A stretch of 64,000 nucleotides of DNA from positions 496,001-560,000 of the forward strand of contig JAGYIR010000011.1 of the NCBI GenBank assembly GCA_018402525.1. Direction: 5' to 3'. The stretch is from Crocinitomicaceae bacterium. Lineage in GTDB: Bacteria; Bacteroidota; Bacteroidia; Flavobacteriales_D; Crocinitomicaceae. The notes under the pieces were generated by a model. That model saw only the letters and a program-made list of their open reading frames with translations, was not told the origin of the DNA and did no database searches. Shown piece after piece: positions 16,223 to 39,467 of the stretch. Position 1 is the first letter of the stretch. Each line of letters starts with the position of its first letter. The translations under genes were made by a program, and so were the position numbers.

Positions 16223-16756
16223 TTAAATTCTATTCACAATCATTCTTATTTTATCCCGAATAATAGCGGCAATTTCAAAATCTCCATTGTTCATCGCATG
16301 CTCCTTTGCAAGTTCGAGCTGATTGATTTTTTGTTGTATTTCCTCCTTGTCCAAAGGATCCATAATTTTAAGATTTAGAACCTCAAAATAGTTACAGGGC
16401 TGATGCGGTTCGACCTCTACCCTTTTTACGAATATATTTTTTTCGTCGGCCCAATTCGTCAATAATTTTATGCGATTACTCTCCTTGTCATCAATCACGA
16501 CGAGTATATCTGCATCTTCAATCATTCGTTTGTCTCTTACGATGTCAGCATTTATATGTTGTTGCCAATCTGCTATATAAATATGTTTTGAATGGTATTT
16601 CTCTTCGCAATATTGATTAATGAAATCGAACGCTGAATCCAACGAGGAAATAAGAAATCGAACGTTTACATGATCATGCACCAATTCATCAAGTAATTCG
16701 ATTAAAATTTTATTGTCCTTGAAATGGTTTATTGTGGCTATAGCTATATTCTTCAT
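16223..16756 (-). CDS. Protein with SLOG-like N-terminal domain and C-terminal UVR motif
   Basis: 177 residues. Residues about 1-125 alternate strands and helices (MKNIAIATINHF, VRFLISSLDSAFDFINQY, ADILVVIDDKESNRIKLLTNWADE) like a Rossmann/SLOG nucleotide-binding domain. Residues about 142-174 (EEIQQKINQLELAKEHAMNNGDFEIAAIIRDKI) are a UVR motif of the UvrB/UvrC/McsA type: E-x2-L-x2-A-x3-A-x4-FE-x-AA-x2-RD-x-I. UVR motifs mediate protein-protein contacts. Its ATG overlaps the stop of the DnaB-like gene (ATGA), so the two are translationally coupled and probably act together. Confidence 0.7.
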   Translation of the reverse strand: MKNIAIATINHFKDNKILIELLDELVHDHVNVRFLISSLDSAFDFINQYCEEKYHSKHIYIADWQQHINADIVRDKRMIEDADILVVIDDKESNRIKLLTNWADEKNIFVKRVEVEPHQPCNYFEVLNLKIMDPLDKEEIQQKINQLELAKEHAMNNGDFEIAAIIRDKIRMIVNRI

Positions 16757-17591: not shown

Positions 17592-17644
17592 CAAAGAAAA
17601 ATTAGAGTGCCGTCATTCTATGTCGGTTAAATAAAATATCTTTG
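17592..17644. promoter_or_regulatory. Divergent promoter with shared 17-bp operator (site 1, serving two directions)
   Basis: The dyad CCGTCATTCTATGTCGG at 17610-17626 fits CCGNCA-N5-TGNCGG. On the plus strand, TATCTTTG (17637-17644) begins after exactly 10 bases and points at the WYL gene, whose ATG is only 4 bases further, so that mRNA is nearly leaderless. On the minus strand, TTTCTTTG (plus 17592-17599) also begins after exactly 10 bases and points at the DnaB-like gene. The dyad lies where a -33 element would be. The same layout recurs at 19087 and 20490. Confidence 0.8.
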
Positions 17645-17648
17645 ATTT

Positions 17649-18554
17649 ATGTCAAGACAAGGAACCATTCGTCGCTATACTCTGATTATCGAAAAGATCA
17701 ATACGGGTCAATTTCCATCATTCACTCAAATTCAAGATTACTTATACGATTTTGGATTTTCCATTTCAAATAGAACAATTGAGAGAGACTTTGGGGCAAT
17801 TCGTAACGAATTTGGTGTGGAAATCACTTATAATAGATTTAAAGAGGGCTACTTTATTGATGAAGAGAAAAGTATCAATATTGAATCTTTTATTCGGTTC
17901 TTAGAAATTGTTAATACAGCAGAGCTACTTACTCAAAGCTTAAGTGAAAGTAAAGAAGCGCTCAATCATATCTCTTTTGATCAAGTAGGCGAATTAAAAG
18001 GTGTTGAACATTTACCGCTTGTACTAAGAGCAATTAAAGACCACCAGCGAATCCGTATCAAACATCATACTTTTTACTCTGAGAAATCACGAACATTTAA
18101 ATTAGAACCATACTTACTCAAAGAATACCAAAACAGATGGTACATAGTAGCAATTGTTTGTGGAATGAATGAACAACGAACATTTGCCATTGATCGATTG
18201 GAAGAAATTGAAGTATTAGCAGAAACGTTTGAGCCAACACGAACTGAAGAAGTCATTGACAATTTTAGAAATGTGATCGGTTTGGTGTACAACGGCAATG
18301 AAGTCGAAGATGTTGAACTTTCGTTTACTGCATTTCAAGGAAAATACATCCGTACACTTCCCTTTCATTCCTCTCAGAAAATATTAGTCGACACTGAAGA
18401 TGAATTTCGTATTGGATTGAGGATTATTCCTAACTACGAATTCACTCAGAAGATTTTAATGCACGGGAATACCGTTAAGGTATTAAAGCCGAAATGGTTG
18501 GCGGATGAAATTAAATTGGCATTACAAGAATCCCTTAAAAAATATGATGAATAA
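17649..18554 (+). CDS. WYL-domain transcriptional regulator
   Basis: 301 residues. An N-terminal winged helix ('FPSFTQIQDYLYDFGFSISNRTIERDFGAIRNEFGVEI') is followed by a WYL domain around 130-200 ('IKDHQRIRIKHHTF... LEPYLLKEYQNRWYIVAIVCGMNEQRTFAIDRLEEIEV', with RWYIVA as the W-Y-L signature) and a WCX-like C-terminal extension. WYL regulators often control phage-defence genes and sense nucleic acids or nucleotides. A 17-bp dyad overlaps its own promoter, the divergent promoter and two downstream promoters, making this protein the most likely binder. Its 3' end overlaps the next gene by 11 bases. Confidence 0.9.
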   Translation: MSRQGTIRRYTLIIEKINTGQFPSFTQIQDYLYDFGFSISNRTIERDFGAIRNEFGVEITYNRFKEGYFIDEEKSINIESFIRFLEIVNTAELLTQSLSESKEALNHISFDQVGELKGVEHLPLVLRAIKDHQRIRIKHHTFYSEKSRTFKLEPYLLKEYQNRWYIVAIVCGMNEQRTFAIDRLEEIEVLAETFEPTRTEEVIDNFRNVIGLVYNGNEVEDVELSFTAFQGKYIRTLPFHSSQKILVDTEDEFRIGLRIIPNYEFTQKILMHGNTVKVLKPKWLADEIKLALQESLKKYDE

Positions 18555-19083
18555 AAAACTTGGCGACTCTTCCGTGCAACGATTGATAGAGTCATTTGTA
18601 CTAGATAAAATCACTCAACTTGGAGTAGGTGAAATAAAACCAAACACTGAGTTTTCGACAGATCGAATAACAAAAGACAATAAAAACTTTGAAGTGGACT
18701 TTCATGTTGAAAATTCAATTTTAGGTGAAATATATGCGTGCAAGTTTCACTTGCAATCCGCTCAAAAAAAGAAAGTCCACGGTGATTTTTTAAAAATGAT
18801 AACCATTGAGAAAATTTGGGAAAAAGGTATAGTTTCAAAACTATTCATAATGGCATTAAGCTCAAATGAGCCAATGTTAAGTGAGTTCCCTAGTTCCTTA
18901 ATCGGGCAATTCATACCCGCTAAATCTTCCCTCTTTCATATCAATACATTGGGTGAAAAAAGTTGGATTTGGGAGACAATCGAATCCTTCAAAATTGACA
19001 TCTATTATATTGTACTGCCTAAAGATTTAAGTTTGGATTTGGAAGAACAGAGGAGAAATCAAAAATTAGCGTTAACCAAATAG
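18544..19083 (+). CDS. Hypothetical protein, possibly PD-(D/E)XK-like
   Basis: 179 residues from ATG 18544 (an ATG at 18547 is also possible), overlapping the WYL gene by 11 bases. The segment 'NFEVDFHVENSILGEIYACKFHLQSAQKKKVHGDFLKM' has an acidic strand, a Glu-containing strand with Lys, and a following K-x2-x-D-x-x-K-M helix. This reminds me of nuclease-like core folds, but the classical D...ExK spacing is not exact. The function is unknown. Tight coupling to the WYL gene suggests the two are made together. Confidence 0.55.
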   Translation: MMNKKLGDSSVQRLIESFVLDKITQLGVGEIKPNTEFSTDRITKDNKNFEVDFHVENSILGEIYACKFHLQSAQKKKVHGDFLKMITIEKIWEKGIVSKLFIMALSSNEPMLSEFPSSLIGQFIPAKSSLFHINTLGEKSWIWETIESFKIDIYYIVLPKDLSLDLEEQRRNQKLALTK

Positions 19084-19086
19084 CCT

Positions 19087-19121
19087 CCGACACAATTTGG
19101 CGGTAATTGTTTGTTGCTTTG
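19087..19121 (+). promoter_or_regulatory. Operator plus -7 box upstream of the PcfJ-like gene (site 2)
   Basis: The dyad CCGACACAATTTGGCGG (19087-19103) starts 3 bases after the stop codon of the preceding gene. TTGCTTTG (19114-19121), a -7 box with one mismatch to TAnnTTTG, starts exactly 10 bases after it. The gene's ATG is at 19131. Spacing and dyad match the sites at 17610 and 20490. Confidence 0.75.
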
Positions 19122-19130
19122 AAAGAAAAC

Positions 19131-20486
19131 ATGCTTGAGAACCATCAACTTGAAATCATAACAACGACAAAATTACTTCACAAAACTCCTCGCTTGTGCG
19201 AAGAATGGATAGCCGCTACTCAAGCGATTCCATTCGCTGATTCATTTTCACGATTGCTCTTATGGTTGGAGTATTTTAATGAAACTTTTCACAGCAAACA
19301 ATGTGTCCATTACCATTTTACAATAGAAGCACTTTTTTCAGTTTGGACCGGCAAAAACGTACTACTGGAACAAACGTTTCATGAATTTGAATTGTCCAAA
19401 GAATTTTACGAATCATTTTTTGCAACTGCTATAGGTACTGTCTTTCTAGACTCTGCTACGGCCAGAAAACTATTGGTTTTATCGTTTGTGTTTTCGAAGT
19501 ATTATGGAATGATTCGAAGTTCGTTACTTCCTCAATTTAAAAACTTAGATCAATTCATCCGACCAGAGGATATGGATAACATTTTCATCAAATCTTTTGT
19601 GAAATACGAGACTCCTGGCTTTTTGATTCGGAATTTTCAGGAAATGACAACAGTTGAAATGCAATTATTGATGGAGCTAATTCAAGGGAAAAACTTAAGG
19701 TCACATGTTCTATTCCCAAATGCATTAACGAAAAAAGAATTTGCACAACTCGGCGCATTAAATACAAATCGCATCCTTTATTCAGATAAAATAGTTTTAA
19801 GAGGAGCAATCATTGTAAAACTAACCAACGGCGAATTCAACGAGCATTTTCTAGATGTCTTTTTGCAATCCTCTGCTACTTTCAAGATGTATCCGGAAAG
19901 ATATTTTCAAGATATTGATTATTGGAGAAAAGGGTATTATCTAACACTTGATGGCTTACATGGGCTTCAAAACGGATCAATAACCGATTGTGTCGATTTT
20001 CTTGAAAGTAAAAAATATCATACGGATGAGCCGTTTTCCTTAAACGGAAGAACCACTGCATCGTTTCTAAGATTGGTTGCAGATTGGCATGGCCAGGTCC
20101 ATCAGATTGACTTCAAGCAATTTATTGGGGAAATTTGGGAGAAGTCAAGTGCTAAAGATTTCCATTTTACGATTGATAATGTTCGTTACTGTTGCATAGA
20201 ACTTCACTCGGGACTAATGCTGGACAACGAAGGTAAAAGCCTTAATCACTGTGTGATCACCTACACGCCTCTCTGTAAAAAACGATATTGTACAATTTGG
20301 AGTTTACGACGTTGGAGCATAGAAAAAAATGGATTTGAATCACTTCTGACATTGGAAGTTTCTGATAACACCATCGTTCAAGCACGTGGAAATGAAAACA
20401 GATTACCGACATCCGCAGAAAAATTAATAATTAAAGATTGGGCAGAACGAATGGGATATTTTGTTGAATTAATCAAAAATCAATAG
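19131..20486 (+). CDS. PcfJ-like domain protein
   Basis: 451 residues from the ATG at 19131; a TTG eight codons earlier lies on the promoter box. The C-terminal about 130 residues match the PcfJ-like pattern: 'FTIDNVRYCCIELHSGLMLDNEGKSLNHCV', then 'CTIWSLRRWS', 'LLTLEVSDNTIVQARGNENRLPTSAEKLIIKDWA'. In the family this region reads L-x2-EG-x2-(M/L)-x-HCV...(S/I)-x-S-(L/W)-R...TLE(V/I)...Q-x-RG-x2-N-(R/A). PcfJ was named from conjugative plasmid pCF10 but its biochemical role is unknown. The N-terminal 300 residues are helical and unrecognised. It has its own operator-bearing promoter. Confidence 0.8.
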   Translation: MLENHQLEIITTTKLLHKTPRLCEEWIAATQAIPFADSFSRLLLWLEYFNETFHSKQCVHYHFTIEALFSVWTGKNVLLEQTFHEFELSKEFYESFFATAIGTVFLDSATARKLLVLSFVFSKYYGMIRSSLLPQFKNLDQFIRPEDMDNIFIKSFVKYETPGFLIRNFQEMTTVEMQLLMELIQGKNLRSHVLFPNALTKKEFAQLGALNTNRILYSDKIVLRGAIIVKLTNGEFNEHFLDVFLQSSATFKMYPERYFQDIDYWRKGYYLTLDGLHGLQNGSITDCVDFLESKKYHTDEPFSLNGRTTASFLRLVADWHGQVHQIDFKQFIGEIWEKSSAKDFHFTIDNVRYCCIELHSGLMLDNEGKSLNHCVITYTPLCKKRYCTIWSLRRWSIEKNGFESLLTLEVSDNTIVQARGNENRLPTSAEKLIIKDWAERMGYFVELIKNQ

Positions 20487-20489
20487 CGT

Positions 20490-20524
20490 CCGACATGATT
20501 TGGCGGTGAGTGGAATTAGCTTTG
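20490..20524 (+). promoter_or_regulatory. Operator plus -7 box upstream of the AAA+ gene (site 3)
   Basis: The dyad CCGACATGATTTGGCGG (20490-20506) starts 3 bases after the PcfJ-like stop codon. TAGCTTTG (20517-20524), a perfect TAnnTTTG box, starts exactly 10 bases later. The AAA+ gene ATG follows at 20548. Confidence 0.78.
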
Positions 20525-23325: not shown

Positions 23326-23883
23326 ATGAAACATAAAATCAATATATATGGAGAAGGTGTGCGTATATGGCTTTGTCATGTTGAAGATGAGTTGTTTCAA
23401 AAAATGAATCGTGCGAGAAAAGAATTGCCTTGGGAATCAGTATTGTTTGATTTGGAATTTCTGGAGCACTTCGGGTTTCAGCACTGGTCCGAATTGGCTA
23501 AAACCAAAGAGCAAATTGGATTCTACCTTACCGAACGGAATATAATTGAAATAAAGAAAGGTAATAAACGCTTATCGAAGTTCTTCGCGAATGATTTAAT
23601 AGCGACCAACCTACTCTTTCCAATGTATGATACAATTCAAACGCAATTCGTAAATAGTGATGATTGCTCATTTGTCCTATTGGAATATGAAACTGGTTTG
23701 GTGATGAGTTATTCCATCGAATCGGATAATCTGATTATGGATGAATTGACGTTTGAGCTGGCTTCAATACAAGGTGAGACACTATTGTCGGGGATTCGAT
23801 ATAAGAATAAAATATTGGGTATATCAAAATCGGATACGGTTGTTAGGGGAAATAATGTAATTCAATCAGCTAGATTATTCTAA
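23326..23883 (+). CDS. Hypothetical protein (185 residues)
   Basis: A soluble mixed alpha/beta protein (MKHKINIYGEGVRIWLCHVEDELFQKM). The N-terminal half contains 'LEFLEHFGFQHWSELAKTKEQIGFYLTERNIIEIKKGNK' and the C-terminal half is beta-rich ('FVLLEYETGLVMSYSIESDN'). No family recognised. Its stop overlaps by 4 bases the stop of the convergent SNF2 helicase gene. Confidence 0.5.
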   Translation: MKHKINIYGEGVRIWLCHVEDELFQKMNRARKELPWESVLFDLEFLEHFGFQHWSELAKTKEQIGFYLTERNIIEIKKGNKRLSKFFANDLIATNLLFPMYDTIQTQFVNSDDCSFVLLEYETGLVMSYSIESDNLIMDELTFELASIQGETLLSGIRYKNKILGISKSDTVVRGNNVIQSARLF

Positions 23884-26800
23884 ATATAAGACTCTAACAA
23901 ATCATATTCTATATCTTGGACATCACGCGCATGATACGGAATGATGATTTGATATTCAGAACATTTTTGGAATGGAGAAGAATGGTTAAATGCCCATGCG
24001 TCTCTGAGGTGCGGATATGGGTTTTTTCGAATTGACTTATATACAAAATCGCCGATTTTTTCCCAACCTTGCCTTACACCTGGTGTCTTTAATTCTTGCC
24101 TCAATCCAACTCCATCTTGACCTCTAAATTCCTTAACTTGAGTTCCTTCTTCAGAAAGTTGAATATCATCTCCTGTAACTGAGAGCTCAACGAAATCTGC
24201 AAATTCAACGAGTAATTTATAATTTGTCAATAATTCAGACATGCTCAATGGATCATCAGGATGATTTGTAAAGACTGGAAGCTCTACTTTCATATATACT
24301 CCCCAAATCGAATATACTGGCTGACTTACATCATAACAGAGTTTACATGTTACTGCCTTCTCTAGGTCAAAATCTTTAAATGAACTATATTTCTCTTCAA
24401 ACAGTTTGATTTGTTTCTTTTTACCAAGCGGCGTTCTCAAAGTAAGACGATGTGTCACATATCCTACATTACCTGTTCCTTTTGGCTCATAATTCACTTC
24501 TACAAATACAGGCTGTCTTCTGTTGTCATGATCCTTTAATTGATCGTCCAAAACACAAATAAGAGATGACTTACCTTTTGGTTCGAATGTGGGAATACCT
24601 TCCTTTTGGAATGTTTGGAGAATCTTATCAACAATACTTTCTCCGTCGAGCTTAATGCTCGCCTTAAACGTTGAATCCTCTAATTCGTCTGGCTTAACAC
24701 CGTAAGGGTCATCCGCTTTGAATTGCTCCGGAACTCTGAAAAACTCCTGCCAGTTTTCGTAATTGAAATTTTCAGGGTCTAAATTAGTCTTACCTGAAAA
24801 TGCTTGGCATTTATCAATTAGATTTTCTTCTCTATACTTCTTACTTATGAAATTTGCCAAATGATCCTGATCAATAGTGTTTCTTAAATAAGGGTATCCT
24901 ATTTCTAAACAATTGGTTTCGTCTTCCTCAAGTTTACGTTCGGTTTTACTAAACATCCTGTCAATTCTTCCAACGCGTTGTTCATTATCACCTGGAGTCC
25001 ATGCAATACCATAATGAATTATCTTATCACAGAAGTATTGTAGATTAACCCCTTCTTGTAGCACTGAAGTAGAAATTAAGACATCTGGAAAAAAAGGTGT
25101 ATTGAAACTAGTCATTACACGTTGATTCTTAGTGTCTCCAGAATAAGCATACGCTGGTTGAGCATCATAAAAATTCTTCCACTCCTCTTTTAGAAGGTCC
25201 TCATTCTTAGTTACGTTAAACACTTTTTCACATAATACCTTGAAGTTTTTTAGCGATGAAGAAATAATCATTGGAATACTCGTTTCTGAAAGCATATTTT
25301 TCACCTCTTTTGCAAATGCTATATATAAATCATAGCCTCTTGAATCAGTATTAAGTGATGCTTGAATGAAGGCAGTATATAGATCGACAAGTGCAGTAGA
25401 AGCAAGTAATACCCCTTTTTCAATAAAGGTACTGAATGCTTCCTTTTCGAAGATTGACAAGTCCGAATATAGCGTTTTTAAATCGTCTAATTCTGAATCA
25501 TTGGCTTCTTTCAAGTGTTCCCAATAAATAGTGAATAATGTGGGGATTTGGTAATATTGATCATCTTTCAAAACGACCGTGTTATTATCTCTTCCGGCAA
25601 GTAAACTATTAATTTGTAAGGAAACACCTTGATTATTTGCACTTTCAACTCGGGCTAAAAGGCAGCTTAAATAATGATCATCTATTAAACCTTTTCCTTT
25701 TAATTCTGAACGCCTAATTCGAACATTATAGCTTTCGGAAATATAGTCAGCAGGAGGAGCAAAAAAGACATTGAATATACTTGGTTTTGAACGCGTAAAT
25801 CGAAGCCTGAAATTTGAAGCATGTGTTGAACGAATAGATGATTCTGCACTCTTCAACGTCTTGAAAAGGTACATTACTTTTGACGTTGGAATTCCCTGAT
25901 AATCTTCTTCTTCCCCCCCTTCAGTCGTAAACTCATCTGCATTGTCATCTTCTTCTTTGCCTAGAATGGCATCAATTTGATTTTGGAAATATTTACGAAA
26001 ATCGGCTGTCGACCAGTTCAGGTGGAGCTCTCTTCCCAACGCAACACTTATTTTCGTTAAAAGAATTTCATCATAACGATGGTTTACACGTGCTGCAATC
26101 TCCCGAACAGAAGGAATTCGGCGGACAAAAACTAATTTCTTTTCATTCAGTTCCTTAAGTGTTTCTTCTGGTTGAATTAGTCCATTAACCAATAAGTCAT
26201 ACTTTGGATGCGAAGGGTATTGATCAAATATCTCCTTATATTTAGCTGAAAGGTTAATTAAAATTTCTCCGTCAGTACCCTTTGCAAAATCTTGCCCTTC
26301 CCTAAGTTCTCGATCCTCTTCAGATATTTGAGCAGGCGCTTGATGAGGTATAAATTCCGTTCCTTCCAAAAAGCCAAGGATATTTCTACGACTACCTTGC
26401 TTTTTCCCTTGCATGTAATCTCGTACCAATTGCTTTTGATAAACCCCAAAAAACAATTCAGCCATTTCATCTTTAAAATCGGCTTGCATGGGTATTTCTT
26501 TTCGATAATTGTATTTAATTTTCCCTTTGGATGACAGTCTCCTGAACCTCCTTAGGCAGATATCATTTAGAATTTCGCTGTAGTTTGAGTTTTTGTAATC
26601 TTCTGTGAAGTAGGAAACAATTGATCGTATATTATCACTTGAAGAATGATTCGGTGTTGCCGTCAAAAGCAATACACGCTCAGCTAAACGATCTTCTCCT
26701 TTTCCAAATAACTCTTTAGCTGCATTTACGCGTAAGCTATCACCTCTATCATTCCTAAAGTAATGAGCTTCATCAATAATAACAAGATCAAAACGACCAC

Positions 26801-27428
26801 TTTTTAATTCCTTATGTAATTTTTGGCGCATGAGTTCGCCAATTCTACGGACAGTTGGTAAGGTATTCTCTATATCGAATTCTTCATCAGTATGAATATC
26901 GATTTCGGATAATCGTTCATTGACTTCTTTTTTACTCAATAAACCACTAAAGGACGAAATTTTTCCTATAAACAATCGACCCCATTTTTGATTTACTTCA
27001 TGAACTAAATCGTATAAATTGGAACAGAAAATTGGTGGATTAATGGCGTGATTACCAATCTTTGACTTAACGATGTCATCAGCTACTTTATAATGAACAT
27101 TTACGAACGTTTCATATTCCCTTTCCCAGTTATATGCAATTTCGTTACGAGGTGCAAGCACCAAAATTTGCGCATCCGGCTTTTGTTGCCATAGAGCAGC
27201 ACAAACAGCAAGTGACTGAATGGTTTTCCCCATGCCCACCTCATCAGCTAACAAAGCGATACCTTTTTCATTCAATAAGTTGAATAAATAACTAGATCCT
27301 TCAGCTTGTTTCGCTTGCATCGAATCTTTGTTGTAATCAGTATATTCGGTCGCAAATCCTTCGCGATCGCGATAAAAGCTCACCAACTTTGTCAGTTCAT
27401 CGGGCGATATGTTTTTAAACTCAGACAT
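23880..27428 (-). CDS. SNF2-type superfamily 2 helicase
   Basis: 1182 residues from the ATG at 27428 (a GTG four codons earlier is possible). Motif I is DEVGMGKT near residue 66 (of the longer form). Motif II is DEAH in 'LVIIDEAHYFRN', motif III 'LLLTATPNH', and the C-terminal helicase lobe has 'VLISTSVLQEGVNLQYFCDKIIHYGIAWTPGDNEQRVGRIDRM' (motifs V and VI). The lobes are separated by a long insertion of about 450 residues and followed by about 300 residues of unknown fold. It is probably a translocase on double-stranded DNA. The start overlaps the PLD gene by 8 bases; it is the last gene of the long minus-strand operon. Confidence 0.9.
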   Translation of the reverse strand: MSEFKNISPDELTKLVSFYRDREGFATEYTDYNKDSMQAKQAEGSSYLFNLLNEKGIALLADEVGMGKTIQSLAVCAALWQQKPDAQILVLAPRNEIAYNWEREYETFVNVHYKVADDIVKSKIGNHAINPPIFCSNLYDLVHEVNQKWGRLFIGKISSFSGLLSKKEVNERLSEIDIHTDEEFDIENTLPTVRRIGELMRQKLHKELKSGRFDLVIIDEAHYFRNDRGDSLRVNAAKELFGKGEDRLAERVLLLTATPNHSSSDNIRSIVSYFTEDYKNSNYSEILNDICLRRFRRLSSKGKIKYNYRKEIPMQADFKDEMAELFFGVYQKQLVRDYMQGKKQGSRRNILGFLEGTEFIPHQAPAQISEEDRELREGQDFAKGTDGEILINLSAKYKEIFDQYPSHPKYDLLVNGLIQPEETLKELNEKKLVFVRRIPSVREIAARVNHRYDEILLTKISVALGRELHLNWSTADFRKYFQNQIDAILGKEEDDNADEFTTEGGEEEDYQGIPTSKVMYLFKTLKSAESSIRSTHASNFRLRFTRSKPSIFNVFFAPPADYISESYNVRIRRSELKGKGLIDDHYLSCLLARVESANNQGVSLQINSLLAGRDNNTVVLKDDQYYQIPTLFTIYWEHLKEANDSELDDLKTLYSDLSIFEKEAFSTFIEKGVLLASTALVDLYTAFIQASLNTDSRGYDLYIAFAKEVKNMLSETSIPMIISSSLKNFKVLCEKVFNVTKNEDLLKEEWKNFYDAQPAYAYSGDTKNQRVMTSFNTPFFPDVLISTSVLQEGVNLQYFCDKIIHYGIAWTPGDNEQRVGRIDRMFSKTERKLEEDETNCLEIGYPYLRNTIDQDHLANFISKKYREENLIDKCQAFSGKTNLDPENFNYENWQEFFRVPEQFKADDPYGVKPDELEDSTFKASIKLDGESIVDKILQTFQKEGIPTFEPKGKSSLICVLDDQLKDHDNRRQPVFVEVNYEPKGTGNVGYVTHRLTLRTPLGKKKQIKLFEEKYSSFKDFDLEKAVTCKLCYDVSQPVYSIWGVYMKVELPVFTNHPDDPLSMSELLTNYKLLVEFADFVELSVTGDDIQLSEEGTQVKEFRGQDGVGLRQELKTPGVRQGWEKIGDFVYKSIRKNPYPHLRDAWAFNHSSPFQKCSEYQIIIPYHARDVQDIEYDLLESYI

Positions 27429-29307
27429 TGGGGTAGTCACACTCTTTTTTAATGAATTTCAACCATTGTGTAAGTTGTTTCACGTCAACTGTGGCATTGA
27501 TGTTAATCTGCTTCACATGTTCGATCGTCAACTCATTTTTACTAAATTCGTTGTATTGCTTTATTATTTGGTTTCCTTCCTCAATGAGGAACCACATGTA
27601 CGGTGAAGTTATCTCTGACTCTTCTGTGCCATGGATAATTTTCAATCTATTTAGGTGTTCTCTCAGCTGCATAACAGATCCAGGCATTTTGAACCCAAGG
27701 ATCCGGAGCTCCTTCGGATTATTTTTAGCTTCTTCTAAACGCTCTTTTATTTGCTCAAAAGCCAAAAACATAGAAAACCAAGCTTGAGAATAGTCACCTT
27801 TCAATTTTTCCTCTATACTTTTTTGAAGTTCCTCCCCAGTTTCAAGGTCATCTGTATAATTCAAATCATGCTGACCTTGTTTATTTTCTGGTCTACCGTC
27901 TGACCAGGCTCTTATCAAATCATCAATAGATTCAAAACCTATCGAAGGTCTTTCACTGGCTTTTATTTCATTTATCATTCCCATAAAGACCTTCTTCCCC
28001 TCCCTTTGGTCGTTATAAACATTAAAAACTCTATCCTTCAATACATTTCTATAATTGTCTTTAAAGCTTATTCCATGATTAAGTTTGTCCAGCTGAACAC
28101 GTTCGTTGATGCCTGGAAGTTCTACAAAATATTCAGTAGATATAACGGATTCAGGGAAAATGGCTCTATACATGTAAGTACCCCAATCAGCAATTATTTG
28201 ACAAGACATAGTCCAATCTTGAATAAGTTGCTGGCGTTCCTCCTCTAAATCACTTTGCTCTACACCCTGAACTTTAGACTTTAATTCTAATTTGGAACTG
28301 CTTAAAATGCTGTTGTAATCTTCATCTGAAATGGATTGAATGACTCCTGCTTCGACATTTGAACGACCATTACTAATATTCAATCCTGCATACGTAAAGT
28401 TCCAAGATCCAATTCCTAGTTTATTTTCTGAAAGCCAAACTTTAGCATGTACCATGGGTTTGTAATCGCCATAATCGTGTTGGTCCTTATGAAACTGAAC
28501 GCGCTCGTTAGCACAGAGTTTGTCTACCACTTCTTTAGAAATTTTCACTGTATCTTTCTCTGAATGGTCAGGAATAATATTCACGGACTTTGCATTCAAT
28601 AAAGTGTCGTTAATGATTTCTGGCACATCATCTGAGAAATAAGGCGACCAGACATGAATATTTTTGTCGACTACCGGAAACTGCTCTATGAACGAAGCCC
28701 CACCTAAAGAATGTTGAAACAACCAATTTGATTCATCTTGCAACTCTCGTTGCCATTTTAAATTCAAAGCATCTAGAAGTTCATGATCCTCTTCTGAAGT
28801 AATTAACTTGCGGTAGAAGTCAATAATTTGTTTTGCATTCCGCTTATCCTCAATTTCTTTAAAAACAATGCATTCTGAGTTGGAAGTCCAAGCGGACATT
28901 GATAAATTTGCAGAACCTGTTATGATCCAACCTTTATCATCTTCATCTACTATTAAAATGACTTTGGGATGGAAAACACCATTTCGAAACTTGGAATCTA
29001 ATTCTTGTGGATTAACACCTACTATGGGAACACTCGTTTTCTTAACTTCTGGACGTAGCGCTCTATAATCATGAAATACTTTGACGTTCAGCACATCCTC
29101 TTCTTCACCAAATAACCGCTGATTAAGTGCTTCATAGTCTTTAAGTGAGCGAAGATTTTTGTAATCTGTATCAGCCAAAGCAGAAAGAATATAACGTTCA
29201 AAGAAAGAAATGCTAAAATTGAATGTAGTAAACCAAGCAACTTTTAATTTCGATCGCTTCTTTAAGAAGCTCGTGAATTCATGATATAGTTTAACTCCTT
29301 CTGCCAT
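27421..29307 (-). CDS. Phospholipase D-like nuclease
   Basis: 628 residues with two PLD half-sites: H113-P-K115 followed by GSANLS (131-136), and H287-A-K289 followed by GSWNFT (300-305). These HxK...GS(A/W)N pairs form one active site in PLD-family nucleases that cut DNA without metal. The C-terminal 300 residues are helical and unrecognised. The start codon overlaps the stop of the upstream 437-residue gene (TAATG) and the stop overlaps the SNF2 start, so the three are translationally coupled. Helicase plus PLD pairs are known in DISARM and Dpd-like systems; the remaining genes here do not match those sets. Confidence 0.88.
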   Translation of the reverse strand: MAEGVKLYHEFTSFLKKRSKLKVAWFTTFNFSISFFERYILSALADTDYKNLRSLKDYEALNQRLFGEEEDVLNVKVFHDYRALRPEVKKTSVPIVGVNPQELDSKFRNGVFHPKVILIVDEDDKGWIITGSANLSMSAWTSNSECIVFKEIEDKRNAKQIIDFYRKLITSEEDHELLDALNLKWQRELQDESNWLFQHSLGGASFIEQFPVVDKNIHVWSPYFSDDVPEIINDTLLNAKSVNIIPDHSEKDTVKISKEVVDKLCANERVQFHKDQHDYGDYKPMVHAKVWLSENKLGIGSWNFTYAGLNISNGRSNVEAGVIQSISDEDYNSILSSSKLELKSKVQGVEQSDLEEERQQLIQDWTMSCQIIADWGTYMYRAIFPESVISTEYFVELPGINERVQLDKLNHGISFKDNYRNVLKDRVFNVYNDQREGKKVFMGMINEIKASERPSIGFESIDDLIRAWSDGRPENKQGQHDLNYTDDLETGEELQKSIEEKLKGDYSQAWFSMFLAFEQIKERLEEAKNNPKELRILGFKMPGSVMQLREHLNRLKIIHGTEESEITSPYMWFLIEEGNQIIKQYNEFSKNELTIEHVKQININATVDVKQLTQWLKFIKKECDYPNV

Positions 29308-30620
29308 TAGTTTGGATTTAAACCATTATAGATTGAACGTATTGATCCTAAATAATAATCATGATACCAGTAATTACTTTTGATAAAGTCTTCCGTCTTA
29401 ATTGGTGTTCGTTGAGCAATGTAATGTTTGATGTTATCTTCCTGAACTTCAACCCAAGCGCCTCCTCCTCTATTTTGCATGATAGCTGAATGATATTCCA
29501 CAATCTTCTCTGCAAATTTCAAGGCATCTCCATTCGCATCTTGCACATATTTTGCAAGCATTTTCAATCGTGGGTTCTCATTTTGCAAATCAACTATATC
29601 ACTCAAATCTATTCGTTCAACAAGTTGAATCAATTGCTCTTTCAGTGTACTTAGTTTTTTATTCCCAATATCTGTCAATAAATAAAACACCTGGGAAATA
29701 TTTGAAAGAAATGGTTCTAAACGAATTATTTGCTCAAGTTGATATTGAGCCTCACCCGTTTGATTTTCTTGTGCTTTTTGAATAATAATTCCAGGATGTG
29801 TCTTATTGTCAAAAACTCCAACTTGCTCGTATAATGCCTGTGCCGCACCTTGCTCAAGCCCCAAATGTTTCTCCCAATATTTACGAAGCTTTAAGTTCAT
29901 ATTCAACTTTCCAAAACAACGAACATATTGATCTATTGTATCTTGTTTTTGCTGCAATTCAGCCAATGACAATAAGATATGGGAACCACTTTTAACCTCT
30001 ATCAATTCGCATATTAGCGCTACCAAGGTATCTGCTAATTCCTTTCCTTCTGGCCATTGATCAATGATTGTTTTAACTTCTTCCCAATCTCCGTTATACT
30101 TTAGCGTCTTAGTTAAAAGTCCCATATTTATAAATGGTCCTTTGTAACGGCCTGTAACACCTAATTGTAATTGTCGAACTAGTACTCCTTTTGATTTTTC
30201 TGCTTCAATTAATATTTCAGCTGGTTCTTTAATCAATTGCTTTTCTGCGTTATAGCTACCTAACAACCCCAAAGTATCAACTAATTCTTCGTTGTTTCGA
30301 TTCATCATCAATGAAAAAACCATCGCGTCTTCCATCAAGATTAACAGCCCAGCTTTCAGATCGTAATCATTGGTGTAATCTGTAAATTTATTTTTCGCGT
30401 GATGGAAAACATCTGAACGATCATTTTCTAAGCAATAAAGTACATAAAGCTGCAATAAATTGACAGAATAATTACGGATATCCGTAGCAACAGTGGTCAG
30501 CTTATTATTAAATATTTTTTGTCCAAAATGGGTCCATATTATTTGCATACCCAATGGGTCCACTGAGCCCTCTTGGACTATGGATGAATCAGGAATCGTA
30601 AATATATTAGACCATTTCAT
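29307..30620 (-). CDS. Unrecognised helical protein coupled to the PLD/SNF2 pair
   Basis: 437 residues, predominantly alpha-helical. The N-terminus 'GSVDPLGMQIIWTHFGQKIF' followed by 'TDIRNYSVNLLQLYVLYCLE' is a distinctive conserved-looking block that I recall only vaguely from proteins next to defence helicases; I cannot name the family. 'VTGRYKGPFINMGLLTK' in the middle is another likely conserved site. The absence of a signal peptide implies a cytosolic role, perhaps target recognition or scaffolding for the helicase and PLD nuclease. It overlaps the PLD gene by one base. Confidence 0.7.
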   Translation of the reverse strand: MKWSNIFTIPDSSIVQEGSVDPLGMQIIWTHFGQKIFNNKLTTVATDIRNYSVNLLQLYVLYCLENDRSDVFHHAKNKFTDYTNDYDLKAGLLILMEDAMVFSLMMNRNNEELVDTLGLLGSYNAEKQLIKEPAEILIEAEKSKGVLVRQLQLGVTGRYKGPFINMGLLTKTLKYNGDWEEVKTIIDQWPEGKELADTLVALICELIEVKSGSHILLSLAELQQKQDTIDQYVRCFGKLNMNLKLRKYWEKHLGLEQGAAQALYEQVGVFDNKTHPGIIIQKAQENQTGEAQYQLEQIIRLEPFLSNISQVFYLLTDIGNKKLSTLKEQLIQLVERIDLSDIVDLQNENPRLKMLAKYVQDANGDALKFAEKIVEYHSAIMQNRGGGAWVEVQEDNIKHYIAQRTPIKTEDFIKSNYWYHDYYLGSIRSIYNGLNPN

Positions 30621-30635
30621 TATGTACTTCCTTTT

Positions 30636-31295
30636 TTATTTCGTTAACCCGAATTCAATTAAATACGCTCTCCATTCTTCCCATGAAAAGTATTGACTTG
30701 GGTGACGAATAAAATCTAATTGAATTTTATGATCTCCATTAACCAAGAAGGCTCTTTTTCCATATGCACTTCCTATTTTCTTTATCCATTGAGTCGGTGT
30801 AAACTCGACATCATTGCGTTTCGCGCAGATGTTGAATCGATCCGCAGATGAGTTACCTAAAAACAAAACTCTGGTTGGATTTAGAATTGGTGCTAATTTG
30901 AAAAATGTACTCCAAGCATTATCGAAGTCTTGGTGCGAAGGCCTTTCTTTCGTATTCATATTCATCGGACGTTGAACAAAGTTATAGAAGGCAAATCTAT
31001 TCCAGAATGGGTCTGTATCAAACGAATCGTTACCCATCATCGCTCTATGGAAATTAGGAAAGAGATTAATGTCACCATATTCTCTATTAAAACACATTTC
31101 ATCCACAATCTCCCGAGTAAAATTAGGATGCAAATGCTTTTCATAAGAATTTGCTTCAGTAGGCTTGTAGTAATGGCTTTCTCCAATAATCAATACCTTA
31201 CTTTTCGAATCATTTCCAAGGTAAGTATCTCCCACAAATGGCAGCCATGTCAAAGTTTCGATTTTTCTAAAATCTGGATCTAATTTTGTATTCAT
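30636..31295 (-). CDS. Uracil-DNA-glycosylase-superfamily-like protein
   Basis: 219 residues. 'WLPFVGDTYLGNDSKSKVLIIGESHYY' near the N-terminus and 'LVNGDHKIQLDFIRHPSQYFSW' near the C-terminus correspond to the two loops of the UDG superfamily (GE-x-H/P-G..., and HPS). 'VLFLGNSSADRF' is the central strand. The catalytic Asp/Asn of true glycosylases is not apparent, so this may be a member with another activity on modified or foreign nucleic acid. It lies 15 bases from genes on both sides, in the same operon. Confidence 0.65.
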   Translation of the reverse strand: MNTKLDPDFRKIETLTWLPFVGDTYLGNDSKSKVLIIGESHYYKPTEANSYEKHLHPNFTREIVDEMCFNREYGDINLFPNFHRAMMGNDSFDTDPFWNRFAFYNFVQRPMNMNTKERPSHQDFDNAWSTFFKLAPILNPTRVLFLGNSSADRFNICAKRNDVEFTPTQWIKKIGSAYGKRAFLVNGDHKIQLDFIRHPSQYFSWEEWRAYLIEFGLTK

Positions 31296-31310
31296 AATAG
31301 TTTATTTTAA

Positions 31311-32147
31311 TTATTTTCTTTTCAATTCATCCAACGTCTTCCCTTCCTTATTCTTCCATTCCAACCAGCCATTTGCTCGTCTTGCGAGAATAGTTCCTGC
31401 AGCAGCACTTGGCGATTTAAAGATATGATCTGTTTGAAAAACCAACATTTTATTAACCTCTTTTAATACTGAATCATCAATCAAACGCGTTCGAATATCA
31501 TTTATCCATTTGCCCGCAGAAGCAGATTCTACAAGTGTACATTTTCCTCCTTTGTAAACGACAAAGCCATCATCGGTCATTTCCCCTTCTGCACTAGCTT
31601 CTTTGCCTTTGCAATAAAAAAGTTCCTTTGTTGATTTGGCTTTTCTTTTCTCCTCAAAAAGTGGGTAGCCCAAAGTGGCTAACAAAATTTTAATCGTCTC
31701 AAAATTGTCAAGCAAATCGTGTTCTCTTGTTTCAGGAATTGAAGGACGTTGTGAATCTTTTCCATTTTCCGTTTTGTACCGACCTACTTTTTCAGCTTGC
31801 ATCAAACAATAATGTTCTAAATACTTCACATCAGTTTTAGTATATTCATTGGTTTTGGTTGCAACGACAATGCAATGTGTCCAAAAATCTTTTTTACGGT
31901 TGTGTTCTTGTAATCGTTTAAAACAATCTTCCCCTTCGCCGATATAAACCAAAGGTTGGGATTCATCTTCTGTTGTTCCAAACAAAAAATAAACTCCAGT
32001 AAAATGAACCGTTTCTCGCTTTGAAACCTCGTCAAATTTATTTCTTGGGAATAACAAGGCCTTCACCAAACGGTTCGTGATTTCTGCTTCTCTAATGGAG
32101 GTTGGTGATCCATCTGGAAGGAATATTTGGATGGTTTGTGGTTTCAT
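31311..32147 (-). CDS. GIY-YIG nuclease with DUF4357 domain
   Basis: 278 residues from MKPQTIQIFLPDG (32147). The GIY-YIG domain at about 45-130 shows 'FTGVYFLFG', then 'LVYIGEGEDCFKRLQEH' with the conserved Tyr, Gly, Arg and His, and the later Glu in 'VKYLEHYCLMQAEK'. The C-terminal 'AAAGTILARRANGWLEWKNKEG' matches DUF4357, a common partner of GIY-YIG and type I R-M proteins. It is probably a nicking endonuclease. It is placed between the MBL and UDG-like genes (78 and 15 bases away). Confidence 0.85.
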   Translation of the reverse strand: MKPQTIQIFLPDGSPTSIREAEITNRLVKALLFPRNKFDEVSKRETVHFTGVYFLFGTTEDESQPLVYIGEGEDCFKRLQEHNRKKDFWTHCIVVATKTNEYTKTDVKYLEHYCLMQAEKVGRYKTENGKDSQRPSIPETREHDLLDNFETIKILLATLGYPLFEEKRKAKSTKELFYCKGKEASAEGEMTDDGFVVYKGGKCTLVESASAGKWINDIRTRLIDDSVLKEVNKMLVFQTDHIFKSPSAAAGTILARRANGWLEWKNKEGKTLDELKRK

Positions 32148-32225
32148 ATATTCAGCATACAAAATAACAGATTATTCTCATTTTAACTGATCGTTATTGA
32201 TCAAGAAGAATCTTTCATAACGAAA

Positions 32226-33608
32226 TTAATCATTGTCAATTCCAGAGAACAATTTATCAAGGTTATCGCCTCTCCGCTCTCTTTTAACATAATCTTCACC
32301 GTAAAAACAGTTAAAACTACCTAGGCTTGGATACTTTATTTTAAATGAATCTAAAACCTCATAATTTGTTGTAAAAACTACATTGTGCACAGTCGTTCCT
32401 AAACTATATTTTTCACCAAATCTTTCAGCCCCCCAACCACGTTTAACATGCTCGTTTACAGTATCTCTTCGAGGGTGCTTATAACTATTGTTCTTTCCAT
32501 AACTGTATACAATTAAACCTTCGCCTTCTTTATGACACGTAGGAAAGTTAGATGTTGAATATAATTTCCCTCCGTGATGAGTAGCGCAAAGGGCTTCGAC
32601 ATGAGTTAACTGCTTATCAATATAGGTATATTGTGAATCTCCAGGAAATAGAATTTCAGATATATCATTCTCTTTGCCCAGATCCAGTTTAACCGCGATT
32701 CCTGAATCATTCCTTTTTTTTCCTGTGCATTTTACTGCACGACCAATTGTGAACTTGTTCACACGATCAAACTCATCCTTAATTAAAACTAAATTCTCCT
32801 TAACAGCATTAGCAAATTTCTTAATTGAAAAATTAGAATCCTGCAAAGGTGCAATCCACTTGCAATTGGCATATTTGGCTACATCCCGAAAAGCAGTTTC
32901 ATAGTGGTCCATGTCCCAATGAGAAAGAATAACATATGGATTATTGTTAACCGGGAATTCTTTGGCAACCGGATAAGTAAATTTATTTTTATAACCACCA
33001 CCACCAAGATCAATATATAGAACTGGTTCTAAATTCTCATCAAAAACACCTGTAGCATTTCCTTGACCTACATTAAAATTAACTACTTGTAACTTCTTAT
33101 CAAACTTCGAAGCAGACATGTCCACTTTAAACTTTTCCAATAACTGAGCTGTTTTATCTCCATCATACAATTCGTTTAGAGATATTAGCTCTTCCAACTT
33201 ATCAGAAATAATTTTCTCGCTATTTTTTCTCTTACCAATTAAAGAAATTGAATCGGAGCCAATATTTAATGTTGTAAACCCTATCGATTCAGCATTAAAT
33301 TCGCCAGTTGGAACATTTGTGGAGTATACTTCAACTTCCAACCTATTTCCTCCGAAAGAAACCCTTGTATCTATTTTCACCCATCTTCGCTCATAGTTTT
33401 CAGCACTTTCAAATTTGCCTGACATAAAATCAGAAAAGTTTTCACGATTTAATGTAATAAACATCAATTGTGTATCTATGTCATTTATTGATTCGCTTGT
33501 TAAACCATCTAATTCACTTTCACTGACAGCAATTGTATCGATCATCATATGAACTTCTTCATTCTCTAATTCAGATTCATATATGATACCAAAATATTCT
33601 CTTTGCAT
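32226..33608 (-). CDS. ComEC-like metallo-beta-lactamase-fold hydrolase
   Basis: 460 residues. After an unrecognised N-terminal domain of about 170 residues, the MBL core appears: 'LQVVNFNVGQGNATGVF', 'LYIDLGGGG', the metal motif S229-H-W-D-M-D-H235 (the HxDxDH variant of the ComEC/Rec2 lineage), and 'CATHHGGKLYSTSNFP'. No membrane segments, unlike ComEC itself. ComEC-type MBL domains degrade DNA, so a nuclease role is plausible. The gene starts 15 bases after hsdR on the same strand, so the R-M operon continues into this module. Confidence 0.8.
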   Translation of the reverse strand: MQREYFGIIYESELENEEVHMMIDTIAVSESELDGLTSESINDIDTQLMFITLNRENFSDFMSGKFESAENYERRWVKIDTRVSFGGNRLEVEVYSTNVPTGEFNAESIGFTTLNIGSDSISLIGKRKNSEKIISDKLEELISLNELYDGDKTAQLLEKFKVDMSASKFDKKLQVVNFNVGQGNATGVFDENLEPVLYIDLGGGGYKNKFTYPVAKEFPVNNNPYVILSHWDMDHYETAFRDVAKYANCKWIAPLQDSNFSIKKFANAVKENLVLIKDEFDRVNKFTIGRAVKCTGKKRNDSGIAVKLDLGKENDISEILFPGDSQYTYIDKQLTHVEALCATHHGGKLYSTSNFPTCHKEGEGLIVYSYGKNNSYKHPRRDTVNEHVKRGWGAERFGEKYSLGTTVHNVVFTTNYEVLDSFKIKYPSLGSFNCFYGEDYVKRERRGDNLDKLFSGIDND

Positions 33609-33623
33609 AGTTTATTGTTTTAT

Positions 33624-36494
33624 TTAACCCACCATCCCCTCAACAAACACCTCCACATACTCCTTCATCTTTTCCAATATCCTGTCTCCGATAACTCTTG
33701 CTTGCAAAATACTCGGACGGTTATCCAAACATTTGTAAATATCATCACGGATTGGTTCTTGACCAGAATAGATATACGCATCAATTAAAGCTTTGAATTG
33801 GTCTTTGTCTAGGTGTTCTTCTTCGCACATTTTGTGGAGTGCCAATACCTTTTGATCGCTCCAATATTTTTCGAATTCATCAGGGATGTTGTCTGCATCT
33901 GTAATGTGCGGAAGGTTTTCTTGGATGAATTTTTCTATGAGTTCTCGTTTGCTGCGATATTGTACCTCGCCAGCAAGCATGTCCATGATTTTCTTGCGTT
34001 GTGCTGTCGCACTTGTGCCCGTTTCTCCTTTTAATTGAGCAAGCAATTTGAGGATATACGCAACATTGATCTCATCGCGGTGAATCAACTCCAATTCAAA
34101 ATCGATGTCATCGAGAATGGATGTTTTTTGCTTGGTGTGATCGTTCTTTACTTTATCGTAAAGGTCTAAGTACTTGCTCTTGTAATCCTCAAAGTCTTGT
34201 TCGCTGATAGGTAAATCTTCCCAATCGAAATCGGTGTAAGAACCCAGAACATTCACCGTTCGCATTAAGGCTCTGAAGGCTTGTACAAATTGTGTTTCTT
34301 CAATTTCACTTGGTAAATCATCAACGCTTTGGTAGGTAGGTGCTATTTCCAATAAGTTCTTTAATGCTTCATCGAATTTTTCTGCGACTTTCTCATAAGG
34401 TGGTAAGACAATCTCCTCAATTGCATCTTTGTTCGAGAACAAAGTAATTGCTTCGTCTGTGGCCTTTTTAAGGTTTCGGAAACACAAAATATTTCCTTGT
34501 GATTTCTGTTCTCCTAGAATTCGGTTGGTTCGAGAGAATGCCTGAATCAATCCATGATGTTTGAGGTTCTTGTCGACGTACAAGGTGTTCACTTTCTTGG
34601 CATCAAAACCTGTGAGCATCATGTTGACCACAATTACAATGTCCAAGCGGTCTTTCTCGTCATTGAAAGATTCTTTTTCGCGCTCTTTTAAGCGTTTGCT
34701 AATGTCTTTGAAATAGTTCTCGAACTGTTGACTGTCCTTCGTTGAAAAGCTGGTATTGTACATCTTATTGTAATCACCAATGTAGCTTTCCAGTTTATCT
34801 CTTGAGTGACTTGACTTATACAATGCTTGTGGTTCAGCCGCTAATTGATATTCGTCATCTGGCAAATAATCTTGTGCGTCTTCGTCTTCTTCATTTGCTC
34901 CAAAGGTGAAAATGGTAGCAACACGCAAATTATGCTCACCCGCTTCTTTCTTCTTTTGAAAAATGTCGTAATAGGCAATGGCATTGTCAATACTGCTCAC
35001 TGCAAACAAAGCAGAGTAGTCTTTTCGGAAGGTTTTCTGATCGTGGTAGGCGATCATGTAATCAACAATTTTCTCTAAACGCTTTGGATCATTGAACACT
35101 TCCGCTTTATCAATGTCTTCTACTTCAATATCAATGAAGGTATTTCCCTTCTGTTTGTACTTGCCAACGTATTCGATACCGAATTTCAATACATTCTGAT
35201 CGCGAATGGCGTCGGTGATGACGTATTTATGCAAGCAATTGCCAAACAAATCTTTTGTGGTGCGTTTCCCGTGCTCATTTTTCGAAGCATTGTCCGCGAA
35301 AATGGGCGTTCCTGTAAAGCCAAATAATTGACTTTTACTAAAAAACTCGGTAATCTTTTTATGTGTATCGCCAAACTGACTTCGGTGACACTCATCGAAA
35401 ATGAAAACAATCTTCTTGTCCTTTAGATGTGTAATCTTGTTTTGGTAATGACTCGAAATGGCGTTGTTCAACTTTTGAATGGTGGTCAATACCAACTTGG
35501 TATCATCCGTTAATTGCCGCACCAAGGAACTCGTGTTGTCTGTTACGTCGACACTGTCTTTTTTGAAGGCATTGAATTCCTTCATCGTTTGGTAATCCAA
35601 ATCTTTTCGATCCACCACAAATACAACCTTGTGAACATCAGGATTGCTCATCAAAATCTGACTCGCCTTGAAGGATGTTAAGGTTTTACCCGATCCTGTG
35701 GTGTGCCATATGTATGCATTATCCTGCGAGGATTTCACTTGATGAACAATGGCTTCCGTGGCAAAGTACTGATACGGGCGCAAGACCATCATGACCTTGT
35801 GCGTTTCATTGATGACGACATATTGCGCAATCATTTTGCCCAAATGGTTTGGCTTGAAGAACGCATCTGCAAATGCGGTTAATTCAGTAACATTCTTGTT
35901 TTTGTCATCTGCCCAAAAGAAGGTTTGTTTCACCGATTGCATGCGGTTGTTTGCCAAGTACTTCGTGTTGACACCGTTGCTAATGACAAAGAGTTGAACG
36001 TATTGAAACAAACCGTGATTGCTCCAAAACGAATGACGCTGGTAACGGTTGATTTGATTAAATGCTTCTTTAATTTCTATGCCTCTGCGTTTGAGTTCTA
36101 TTTGAACCAATGGCAAACCGTTAATCAATAACGTAACATCGTAGCGGTTTAAAAACGAACCTGTTTGCTGCACTTGGTTGGTGACTTGAAACAAATTGTT
36201 GTTCCAATTTTCACTGTCGTAGAAACGAACATAAACTGTATCGCCGTTCTCACGTGTGAAGCTGAAACGATCTCTCAGTGTTTTGGCTTTGTCGAAAACA
36301 TTGCCTTTTGCCAAGTGGTTTAGGATGGCATCGAATTCTTTCTCTGAGTACGAATCTTTGTTGAATGCTTCTAGTTGACTTTTTAGATTGGACACCAAAG
36401 CCTTTCCGTCATGGATTTTGACAGATGTATAACCTAGACTCACCAATTGTTTGATGAGGTTGTTTTCTAGTATGGCTTCGGGTTGGGTTGTCAT
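33624..36494 (-). CDS. hsdR: Type I restriction enzyme, R subunit
   Basis: 956 residues with the complete order of an HsdR. A PD-(D/E)XK nuclease core comes first: D119 in 'NRYDVTLL', E133-L-K135 in 'VQIELKRRG'. The SF2 motor follows, with Walker A TTGSGKTLTS (265-274), DECH at 367-370, 'GFTGTPIF', and motif VI 'LIQAFSRTNRIL'. A helical C-terminal part binds the MTase core. All key residues are intact, so the subunit should translocate and cut when assembled. The ATG overlaps the fic stop codon. Confidence 0.96.
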   Translation of the reverse strand: MTTQPEAILENNLIKQLVSLGYTSVKIHDGKALVSNLKSQLEAFNKDSYSEKEFDAILNHLAKGNVFDKAKTLRDRFSFTRENGDTVYVRFYDSENWNNNLFQVTNQVQQTGSFLNRYDVTLLINGLPLVQIELKRRGIEIKEAFNQINRYQRHSFWSNHGLFQYVQLFVISNGVNTKYLANNRMQSVKQTFFWADDKNKNVTELTAFADAFFKPNHLGKMIAQYVVINETHKVMMVLRPYQYFATEAIVHQVKSSQDNAYIWHTTGSGKTLTSFKASQILMSNPDVHKVVFVVDRKDLDYQTMKEFNAFKKDSVDVTDNTSSLVRQLTDDTKLVLTTIQKLNNAISSHYQNKITHLKDKKIVFIFDECHRSQFGDTHKKITEFFSKSQLFGFTGTPIFADNASKNEHGKRTTKDLFGNCLHKYVITDAIRDQNVLKFGIEYVGKYKQKGNTFIDIEVEDIDKAEVFNDPKRLEKIVDYMIAYHDQKTFRKDYSALFAVSSIDNAIAYYDIFQKKKEAGEHNLRVATIFTFGANEEDEDAQDYLPDDEYQLAAEPQALYKSSHSRDKLESYIGDYNKMYNTSFSTKDSQQFENYFKDISKRLKEREKESFNDEKDRLDIVIVVNMMLTGFDAKKVNTLYVDKNLKHHGLIQAFSRTNRILGEQKSQGNILCFRNLKKATDEAITLFSNKDAIEEIVLPPYEKVAEKFDEALKNLLEIAPTYQSVDDLPSEIEETQFVQAFRALMRTVNVLGSYTDFDWEDLPISEQDFEDYKSKYLDLYDKVKNDHTKQKTSILDDIDFELELIHRDEINVAYILKLLAQLKGETGTSATAQRKKIMDMLAGEVQYRSKRELIEKFIQENLPHITDADNIPDEFEKYWSDQKVLALHKMCEEEHLDKDQFKALIDAYIYSGQEPIRDDIYKCLDNRPSILQARVIGDRILEKMKEYVEVFVEGMVG

Positions 36495-38059: not shown

Positions 38060-38091
38060 ACTTATTCAATAATTTTAAGCGCAATTTACAC

Positions 38092-38154: not shown

Positions 38155-38161
38155 GATTCAC

Positions 38162-39352: not shown

Positions 39353-39361
39353 AATTCGCAC

Positions 39362-39440: not shown

Positions 39441-39467
39441 CTACAACTCTATTTTCTAATTGTACTC

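Follow-up and report, generated by a model that had tools for sequence, protein, structure and literature searches.

How are the genes around a WYL-domain regulator brought under common control? We explored this question in a 64,000-nucleotide (nt) stretch of a Crocinitomicaceae genome (assembly GCA_018402525.1, contig JAGYIR010000011.1, positions 496,001 to 560,000, forward strand), which we call the window. Here a 17-bp dyad, CCGNCA-N5-TGNCGG, lies beside the WYL gene and its neighbours. An earlier note had read this dyad as the operator of a compact regulon, taking for granted that the WYL protein binds it and leaving open whether it activates or represses. The dyad stands exactly 10 nt before a TAnnTTTG-type -7 box at four promoters, and the same geometry recurs in orthologous and in distant WYL loci. 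The likely explanation of the whole is a WYL activator, similar to DriD of Caulobacter, that would hold RNA polymerase on promoters without a -33 element.

Over the whole 64 kb there are three strict dyads, none with a mismatch, against a mean of 0.01 in 100 dinucleotide shuffles. The three sites of the earlier note are thus found where it placed them (Table 1), and nowhere else in the window. When up to two mismatches were allowed there were eight matches compared with 5.9 expected; such relaxed dyads are close to chance level, so only the exact sites are meaningful in the window. Three dyads supply four promoters, dyad 1 having a box on both sides, and the 10-nt distance claimed for all four, including the opposite strand of site 1, was reproduced exactly. 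Two of the boxes match TAnnTTTG at 6/6 positions and two at 5/6 (TTGC..., TTTC...). Dyads 2 and 3 resemble each other. A motif-blind scan of the full window for a 6-5-6 palindrome 10 nt before a box recovered the sites at 17610 and 20490 and one other (minus strand, 42549), while the dyad at 19087, with one arm mismatch and a 5/6 box, falls outside the limits of that scan. The ATG of the WYL gene lies only 4 nt past its -7 box (17637-17649), and its mRNA is therefore predicted to be leaderless.

By protein search we obtained 45 WYL loci from genome contigs, of which 27, the orthologous loci, show 40-62% identity. These are almost all labelled Bacteroidota (L037, in our own numbering, is labelled Chlorobiota), and none of the four stretches examined in viral contigs encodes a relative. 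Site searches covered the window and loci L036-L062; L049, a near-copy of L047, was dropped from the unbiased dyad, 67-site and helix-residue counts. An iterated matrix scan placed the dyad in most of the 27 loci, typically right after the WYL gene and before the next gene. The unbiased count gave 32 core dyads in 20 of the 27 loci, compared with 1.4 in shuffles. Perfect -7 boxes follow these dyads at a spacing of 10 in 20 cases, at 11 in one and at 28 in one, with none elsewhere from 0 to 30; boxes of at least 5/6 number 27 at spacing 10, three at 11 and 0-3 at each other spacing in that range. This is the scan of related loci that the earlier note had proposed, and what the note claimed, one dyad at a fixed spacing in a local WYL regulon, is borne out for this genome and for the majority of the 27 orthologous loci.

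The orthologs also show how far the element can vary. Dyads in L038, L046, L054 and L058 have one or two core mismatches and keep the spacing of 10. A CG-type site with a good box was not found in L050, L057, L060 or L062, where the L057 contig ends inside the WYL gene and the L050 contig about 330 bp after it; in L062 a perfect box is preceded, at 10 nt, by a different palindrome, GAGCCA...TGGCTC. In L051 the dyad lies 10 nt before TATCTTGT, which resembles the TAnnTTGY box of another promoter class of Flavobacterium psychrophilum (PMC9723704; what is said here of papers cited by PMC number refers to the excerpts of them used). The core CGNC-N7-GNCG, allowing one mismatch in the longer core, gave 37 ortholog sites and 30 distant sites, and across these 67 sites the letters of the spacer have diverged while the spacing held.

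We scanned 45 distant WYL loci with no sequence assumed, seeking a 6-5-6 palindrome with up to one mismatch before a perfect TAnnTTTG. At a gap of 10 there were 22 such 17-bp palindromes, a few of which look like chance and several of which come from one genus, while every other gap gave 1-6. The adjacent peaks, at spacer 3/gap 11 and spacer 7/gap 9, probably show these sites again in a shifted frame. Among the distant loci is also TTCCCA-N5-TGGGAA, a second operator that shares the geometry of the CG type. At the position of Arg42 in the recognition helix, Arg is found in all 28 loci with CG-type or related operators, Ser in all six TTCCCA loci, and Ala in L009, which has another palindrome. 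What the sequences show directly is the dyad, the constancy of its geometry, its spread alongside the WYL family, and this match of operator to helix residue. The link between dyad and WYL protein, assumed in the earlier note, is now backed by their co-occurrence in diverged loci and by the agreement of operator type with helix residue.

In the whole genome (3.16 Mb) the strict dyad occurs four times and the reversed control once. The fourth copy (G000:C18:2473) was set aside as a further site, as it has no -7 box. In one distant family, f5, the dyad CGACANNNTTTGTCG is dispersed, with 24 copies in seven of the nine genomes searched, compared with five for the control, and 22 of the 24 have a box of at least 5/6 at spacing 10. 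These copies precede the WYL gene itself seven times, related long proteins 12 times, an HNH protein once and a peptidase M15 protein once. The long proteins, which have a signal-like start (like MNKIYSGALFLCS) and follow the dyad-N10-box arrangement in L116, L119, L121, L122, L124-L130 and L134, are the commonest dispersed targets of this distant WYL regulator.

The position of the dyad within the promoter can be read from Flavobacterium johnsoniae, where the letters of the box are T-12, A-11, T-8, T-7, T-6 and G-5 and the start lies 4-5 nt further on (PMC6847099). By this numbering and the 10-nt spacing, the dyad lies at about -39 to -23, with its centre at -31. The earlier note had put it in the -33 region with no conserved TTTG at normal spacing; the first part stands, and the second needs a small correction, since a TTG 17-22 nt before the TA is present in three of the 67 sites (at 18-19 nt). 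The missing -33 is itself weak evidence, because in F. johnsoniae this element is as a rule faint (PMC6847099). The dyad is palindromic, which would suit a dimer on both halves, but its promoter-proximal half bears an extra conserved TTTG in 54 of the 67 sites. We dropped the TTTG inside the dyad as a -33 element, as 14 nt separate it from the -7 box and the bidirectional site lacks it. The promoter-proximal half may resemble the PafBC motif (TTGTC...).

We propose that the neighbouring WYL factor would bind the dyad as a dimer, at about -39 to -23, and would hold RNA polymerase, carrying a primary sigma factor of the Bacteroidota type, where the -7 box is good and the -33 absent, as DriD does. 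Occupation of the WYL domain, for which single-stranded DNA arising from damage or phage attack is the likeliest ligand, would then turn the island on; the targets here would be the WYL gene itself, the DnaB-like/UVR operon, the PcfJ-like gene and the AAA ATPase. That the WYL protein binds the dyad seems very probable, and it quite probably activates its target promoters, because a repressor needs no fixed spacing. By analogy with DriD and PafBC, single-stranded DNA is about as good a candidate for the signal as not. In the choice left open by the earlier note, the rigid spacing, the use of two operators in one geometry and the DriD register now favour activation.

Caulobacter DriD binds the pseudo-palindromic site ATACGAC(X)7GTCGTAT (core CGAC-N7-GTCG), which overlaps the -35 and does not vary in its distance to the -10; on the polymerase it touches the beta subunit and an alpha C-terminal domain (PMC12340889, preprint). 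Exact matches to CGNC-N7-GNCG lie in the didA and driD promoters, and the bapE promoter has two mismatches to it. A G at -14 is conserved in DriD promoters (PMC12340889). Over the 20 nt that follow the site, the three promoters as printed have just one G in common, at index 9; T-12 of DriD would therefore lie 11 nt after GNCG, in the same register as here. Activators of the DriD type have a three-helix trigger domain within their overall fold. The predicted structure of the window WYL protein (mean predicted local distance difference test score 80) has DriD as its best match, followed by PafBC, ahead of CapW and BrxR, but linker residues 87-105 and 107-117 score below 50; ranked by VIA Z, DriD is again first, then BrxR and PafBC.

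Several results weigh against this reading. No site was found within about 400 bp of the WYL gene in 37 of 72 WYL loci. Arg is also the commonest residue at the Arg42 position in these 37 (26, with Ser in 10 and one gap), so that it is chiefly the Ser/TTCCCA group that carries the helix test. Since the loci share descent, their counts are not independent. In 28 genomes, the window's own and the 27 of the orthologs, the relaxed dyad has 48 matches compared with 51 for the reversed control, and so gives no sign of a scattered regulon in those genomes. Among 31 sites read out there in 30 loci, 15 have a box of at least 5/6 at spacing 10 and the other 16 have no more than 3/6 at that distance. As to DriD, its register was read from printed promoter sequences, consensus scoring alone is ambiguous for the -10 register, and the base placed at -12 is C, not T, in all three promoters. 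A sequence profile ranks PafBC first and DriD second, identity to DriD is 15-19% with whole-chain template modelling (TM) scores below 0.5, and the alignments by phmmer and by the profile cover no more of DriD than its WYL/WCX part. Furthermore, BrxR and CapW, WYL regulators of defence islands, repress (PMC9122588, PMC9122601), and -39 to -23 is a position where a repressor would also work.

Such a repressor is the alternative that survives best, and we consider it unlikely. A WYL dimer over -39 to -23 would block polymerase until a phage-derived ligand releases it, in keeping with CapW and BrxR, which repress defence operons and bind promoter palindromes (PMC9122588, PMC9122601), with the defence genes in which the window island is rich, and with the overlap of the dyad and the expected polymerase footprint. 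Yet a repressor would not need the 10-nt spacing, which is kept before unrelated genes with two operator sequences. The operators of CapW overlap the -10 and that of BrxR comes after it (PMC9122588, PMC9122601), whereas the dyad precedes the -7 box, spanning roughly -39 to -23; promoter sites were partly selected by geometry, and the unbiased dyad count agrees on the upstream position. The structural ranking puts DriD first, and a further weak argument against the repressor is that in most orthologs, when read, the 130 nt preceding the WYL gene itself contain no such dyad.

It is far less probable that the dyad is bound by a different factor, either a regulator of the host or an alternative sigma factor, and that the WYL gene is there by coincidence. 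The dyad and box do read like one composite element, but dyads cluster in WYL loci over a genome background at control level, the operator type follows the WYL recognition-helix residue (28/28 and 6/6), and DriD, a WYL protein, has the same core as its measured site (PMC12340889). That the dyads are a functionless short repeat copied with the island is scarcely credible, since for all the likeness of window dyads 2 and 3, the spacing held while spacer letters diverged, the target genes are unrelated, and 32 core dyads compare with 1.4 in shuffles.

Returning to the proposed activator, we surveyed the genes behind its sites in the same loci and also in L086, L089, L098, L104 and L109, naming each target family from one or two of the members in its cluster. 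The first gene varies. An AAA/peptidase M41 protein is the commonest (10 loci), and others are IetA-like AAA ATPases, DnaB-like ATPases, GmrSD/DUF262, DUF2779 and UVR proteins, with PcfJ in the window; several targets have no family match. The target in L059 is a calcineurin-like phosphoesterase, which we take to resemble SbcD (not a family call), and in L048 the orthologous WYL dyad directly precedes a PDC-M27A-like gene. The recurring AAA/M41 protein is about 690 amino acids long (L041:2724-4811 and nine other loci) and may be an uncharacterised defence protease. Homologs are rare, found in four of 395 genomes of the window's phylum, one being the L041 genome itself. The earlier note held that orthologs keeping the genes without the dyad would speak against it, and the three distant AAA/M41 homologs, a set too small to serve as a full control, bear on this. 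The first has a divergent WYL neighbour and upstream dyads at spacing 8 (scripted) and 9 (by eye; one mismatch, before a 5/6 box), the second has neither a WYL match on its contig nor a dyad, and the third, downstream of a WYL gene, has no dyad at this geometry.

The gene identities proposed earlier are confirmed, the domains read here being WYL with WCX, DnaB_C, UVR, PcfJ and AAA, and one gene, at 18505-19083, had been omitted. Its 192-residue product matches no family of Pfam, PADLOC or NCBIfam, and the gene has no dyad of its own. The window WYL protein matches Pfam WYL at 1.6e-13 and WCX at 8.6e-08. Its winged helix-turn-helix (wHTH) is seen in the structure model (helices 3-17, 25-34 and 41-55; strands 59-62 and 67-70) and in the structural matches. 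The stretch LKEYQNRWY (residues 157-165) is invariant in the WYL domain in all 25 sequences of alignment A1, which leaves out L049, L054 (frameshift) and L057 (cut by the contig end), and is a possible ligand-site signature. We infer that the UVR and DnaB-like genes share an operon.

Table 1. Dyads, -7 boxes and genes of the WYL locus (window positions; box scores are matches to TAnnTTTG, 6/6 unless given).
Feature	Position	Strand	Remark
UVR-motif protein, 177 aa (amino acids)	16223..16756	-	overlaps DnaB-like gene
DnaB-C/KaiC-like ATPase, 273 aa	16753..17574	-	
-7 box TTTCTTTG (5/6), DnaB-like/UVR operon	17592..17599	-	10 nt from dyad 1
Dyad 1 CCGTCATTCTATGTCGG	17610..17626		common to divergent WYL and DnaB-like genes
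-7 box TATCTTTG, WYL gene	17637..17644	+	10 nt from dyad 1
WYL regulator, 301 aa	17649..18554	+	winged helix, WYL (PF13280), WCX (PF25583)
192-aa protein	18505..19083	+	between WYL and PcfJ genes; overlaps WYL 3' end
Dyad 2 CCGACACAATTTGGCGG	19087..19103	+	
-7 box TTGCTTTG (5/6), PcfJ-like gene	19114..19121	+	10 nt from dyad 2
PcfJ-like protein (PF14284), 451 aa from ATG	19131..20486	+	
Dyad 3 CCGACATGATTTGGCGG	20490..20506	+	
-7 box TAGCTTTG, AAA ATPase gene	20517..20524	+	10 nt from dyad 3
AAA ATPase, 555 aa	20548..22215	+	C-terminal AAA domain IetA-like

Further along the window, a large defence island on the minus strand (23880-41042) encodes HsdM and HsdR (type I restriction-modification), a Fic protein (PDC-S24), a PDC-S14-like DUF4357 protein and matches to A, B and C of the candidate defence system PDC-M27. 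A second WYL-like regulator (41137-41976, minus strand, 279 residues, PADLOC WYL 4.9e-21) precedes a type I methyltransferase gene. No 17-bp dyad at such a geometry was found upstream of it, and for this reason we guess that it may be a BrxR/CapW-like repressor.

The switching-on of defence islands is still little known, and BrxR and CapW, WYL regulators found there, are repressors in the sources cited. The chances are roughly even that the element marks a Bacteroidota-wide class of WYL-dependent promoters (17-bp dyad, 10 nt, TAnnTTTG) in the register of the DriD promoters of Alphaproteobacteria, with at least two operator specificities, whose activators would be plug-in, SOS-independent sensors of DNA damage or infection gating swappable defence and genome-maintenance genes. 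We found no report of this class in Bacteroidota among the literature matches listed, which were mostly open-access. A promoter code of dyad, exact spacing and -7 box would allow WYL target genes to be listed from sequence alone and would flag inducible genes without a known function as candidates for defence or repair. It would also suggest one activation geometry common to distant phyla with very different sigma factors, and it reduces the choice between activator and repressor to a simple reporter test.

We compared the window system to known WYL regulators. BrxR and CapW are likewise small WYL regulators beside phage defence genes with palindromic sites, but both are repressors and both match the window protein less well in structure. 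PafBC of mycobacteria is a WYL activator that sits between sigma region 4 and the DNA at a -26 motif and is triggered by single-stranded DNA (PMC11804915), and it is the first match by sequence profile. One of its helix-turn-helix units reads the -26 motif and the other contacts sigma. It is, however, a heterodimer with a larger DNA damage regulon, whereas one WYL gene stands beside the window dyads, and no palindromic site is described for it in the excerpts of that paper. SiwR of Mycobacterium smegmatis is a homodimeric WYL activator of adjacent genes with a 19-bp palindrome between -10 and -35 and a required -26 region (PMC10693628); it belongs to another phylum and its targets are two DinB-superfamily genes. 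DriD differs from the window protein in its length (327 versus 301 residues), in its targets (didA, bapE, recJ and dnaG, rather than a local defence and genome-maintenance island), in that the window has a Bacteroidota-type -7 box, and in that it does not activate its own gene, while the window WYL gene has its own box. What the two share is the wHTH-WYL-WCX fold, with DriD as the top structural match, the core CGNC-N7-GNCG at a fixed distance to the -10, in a register shared by alignment, a poor or absent -35, and a bidirectional regulator promoter (PMC12340889).

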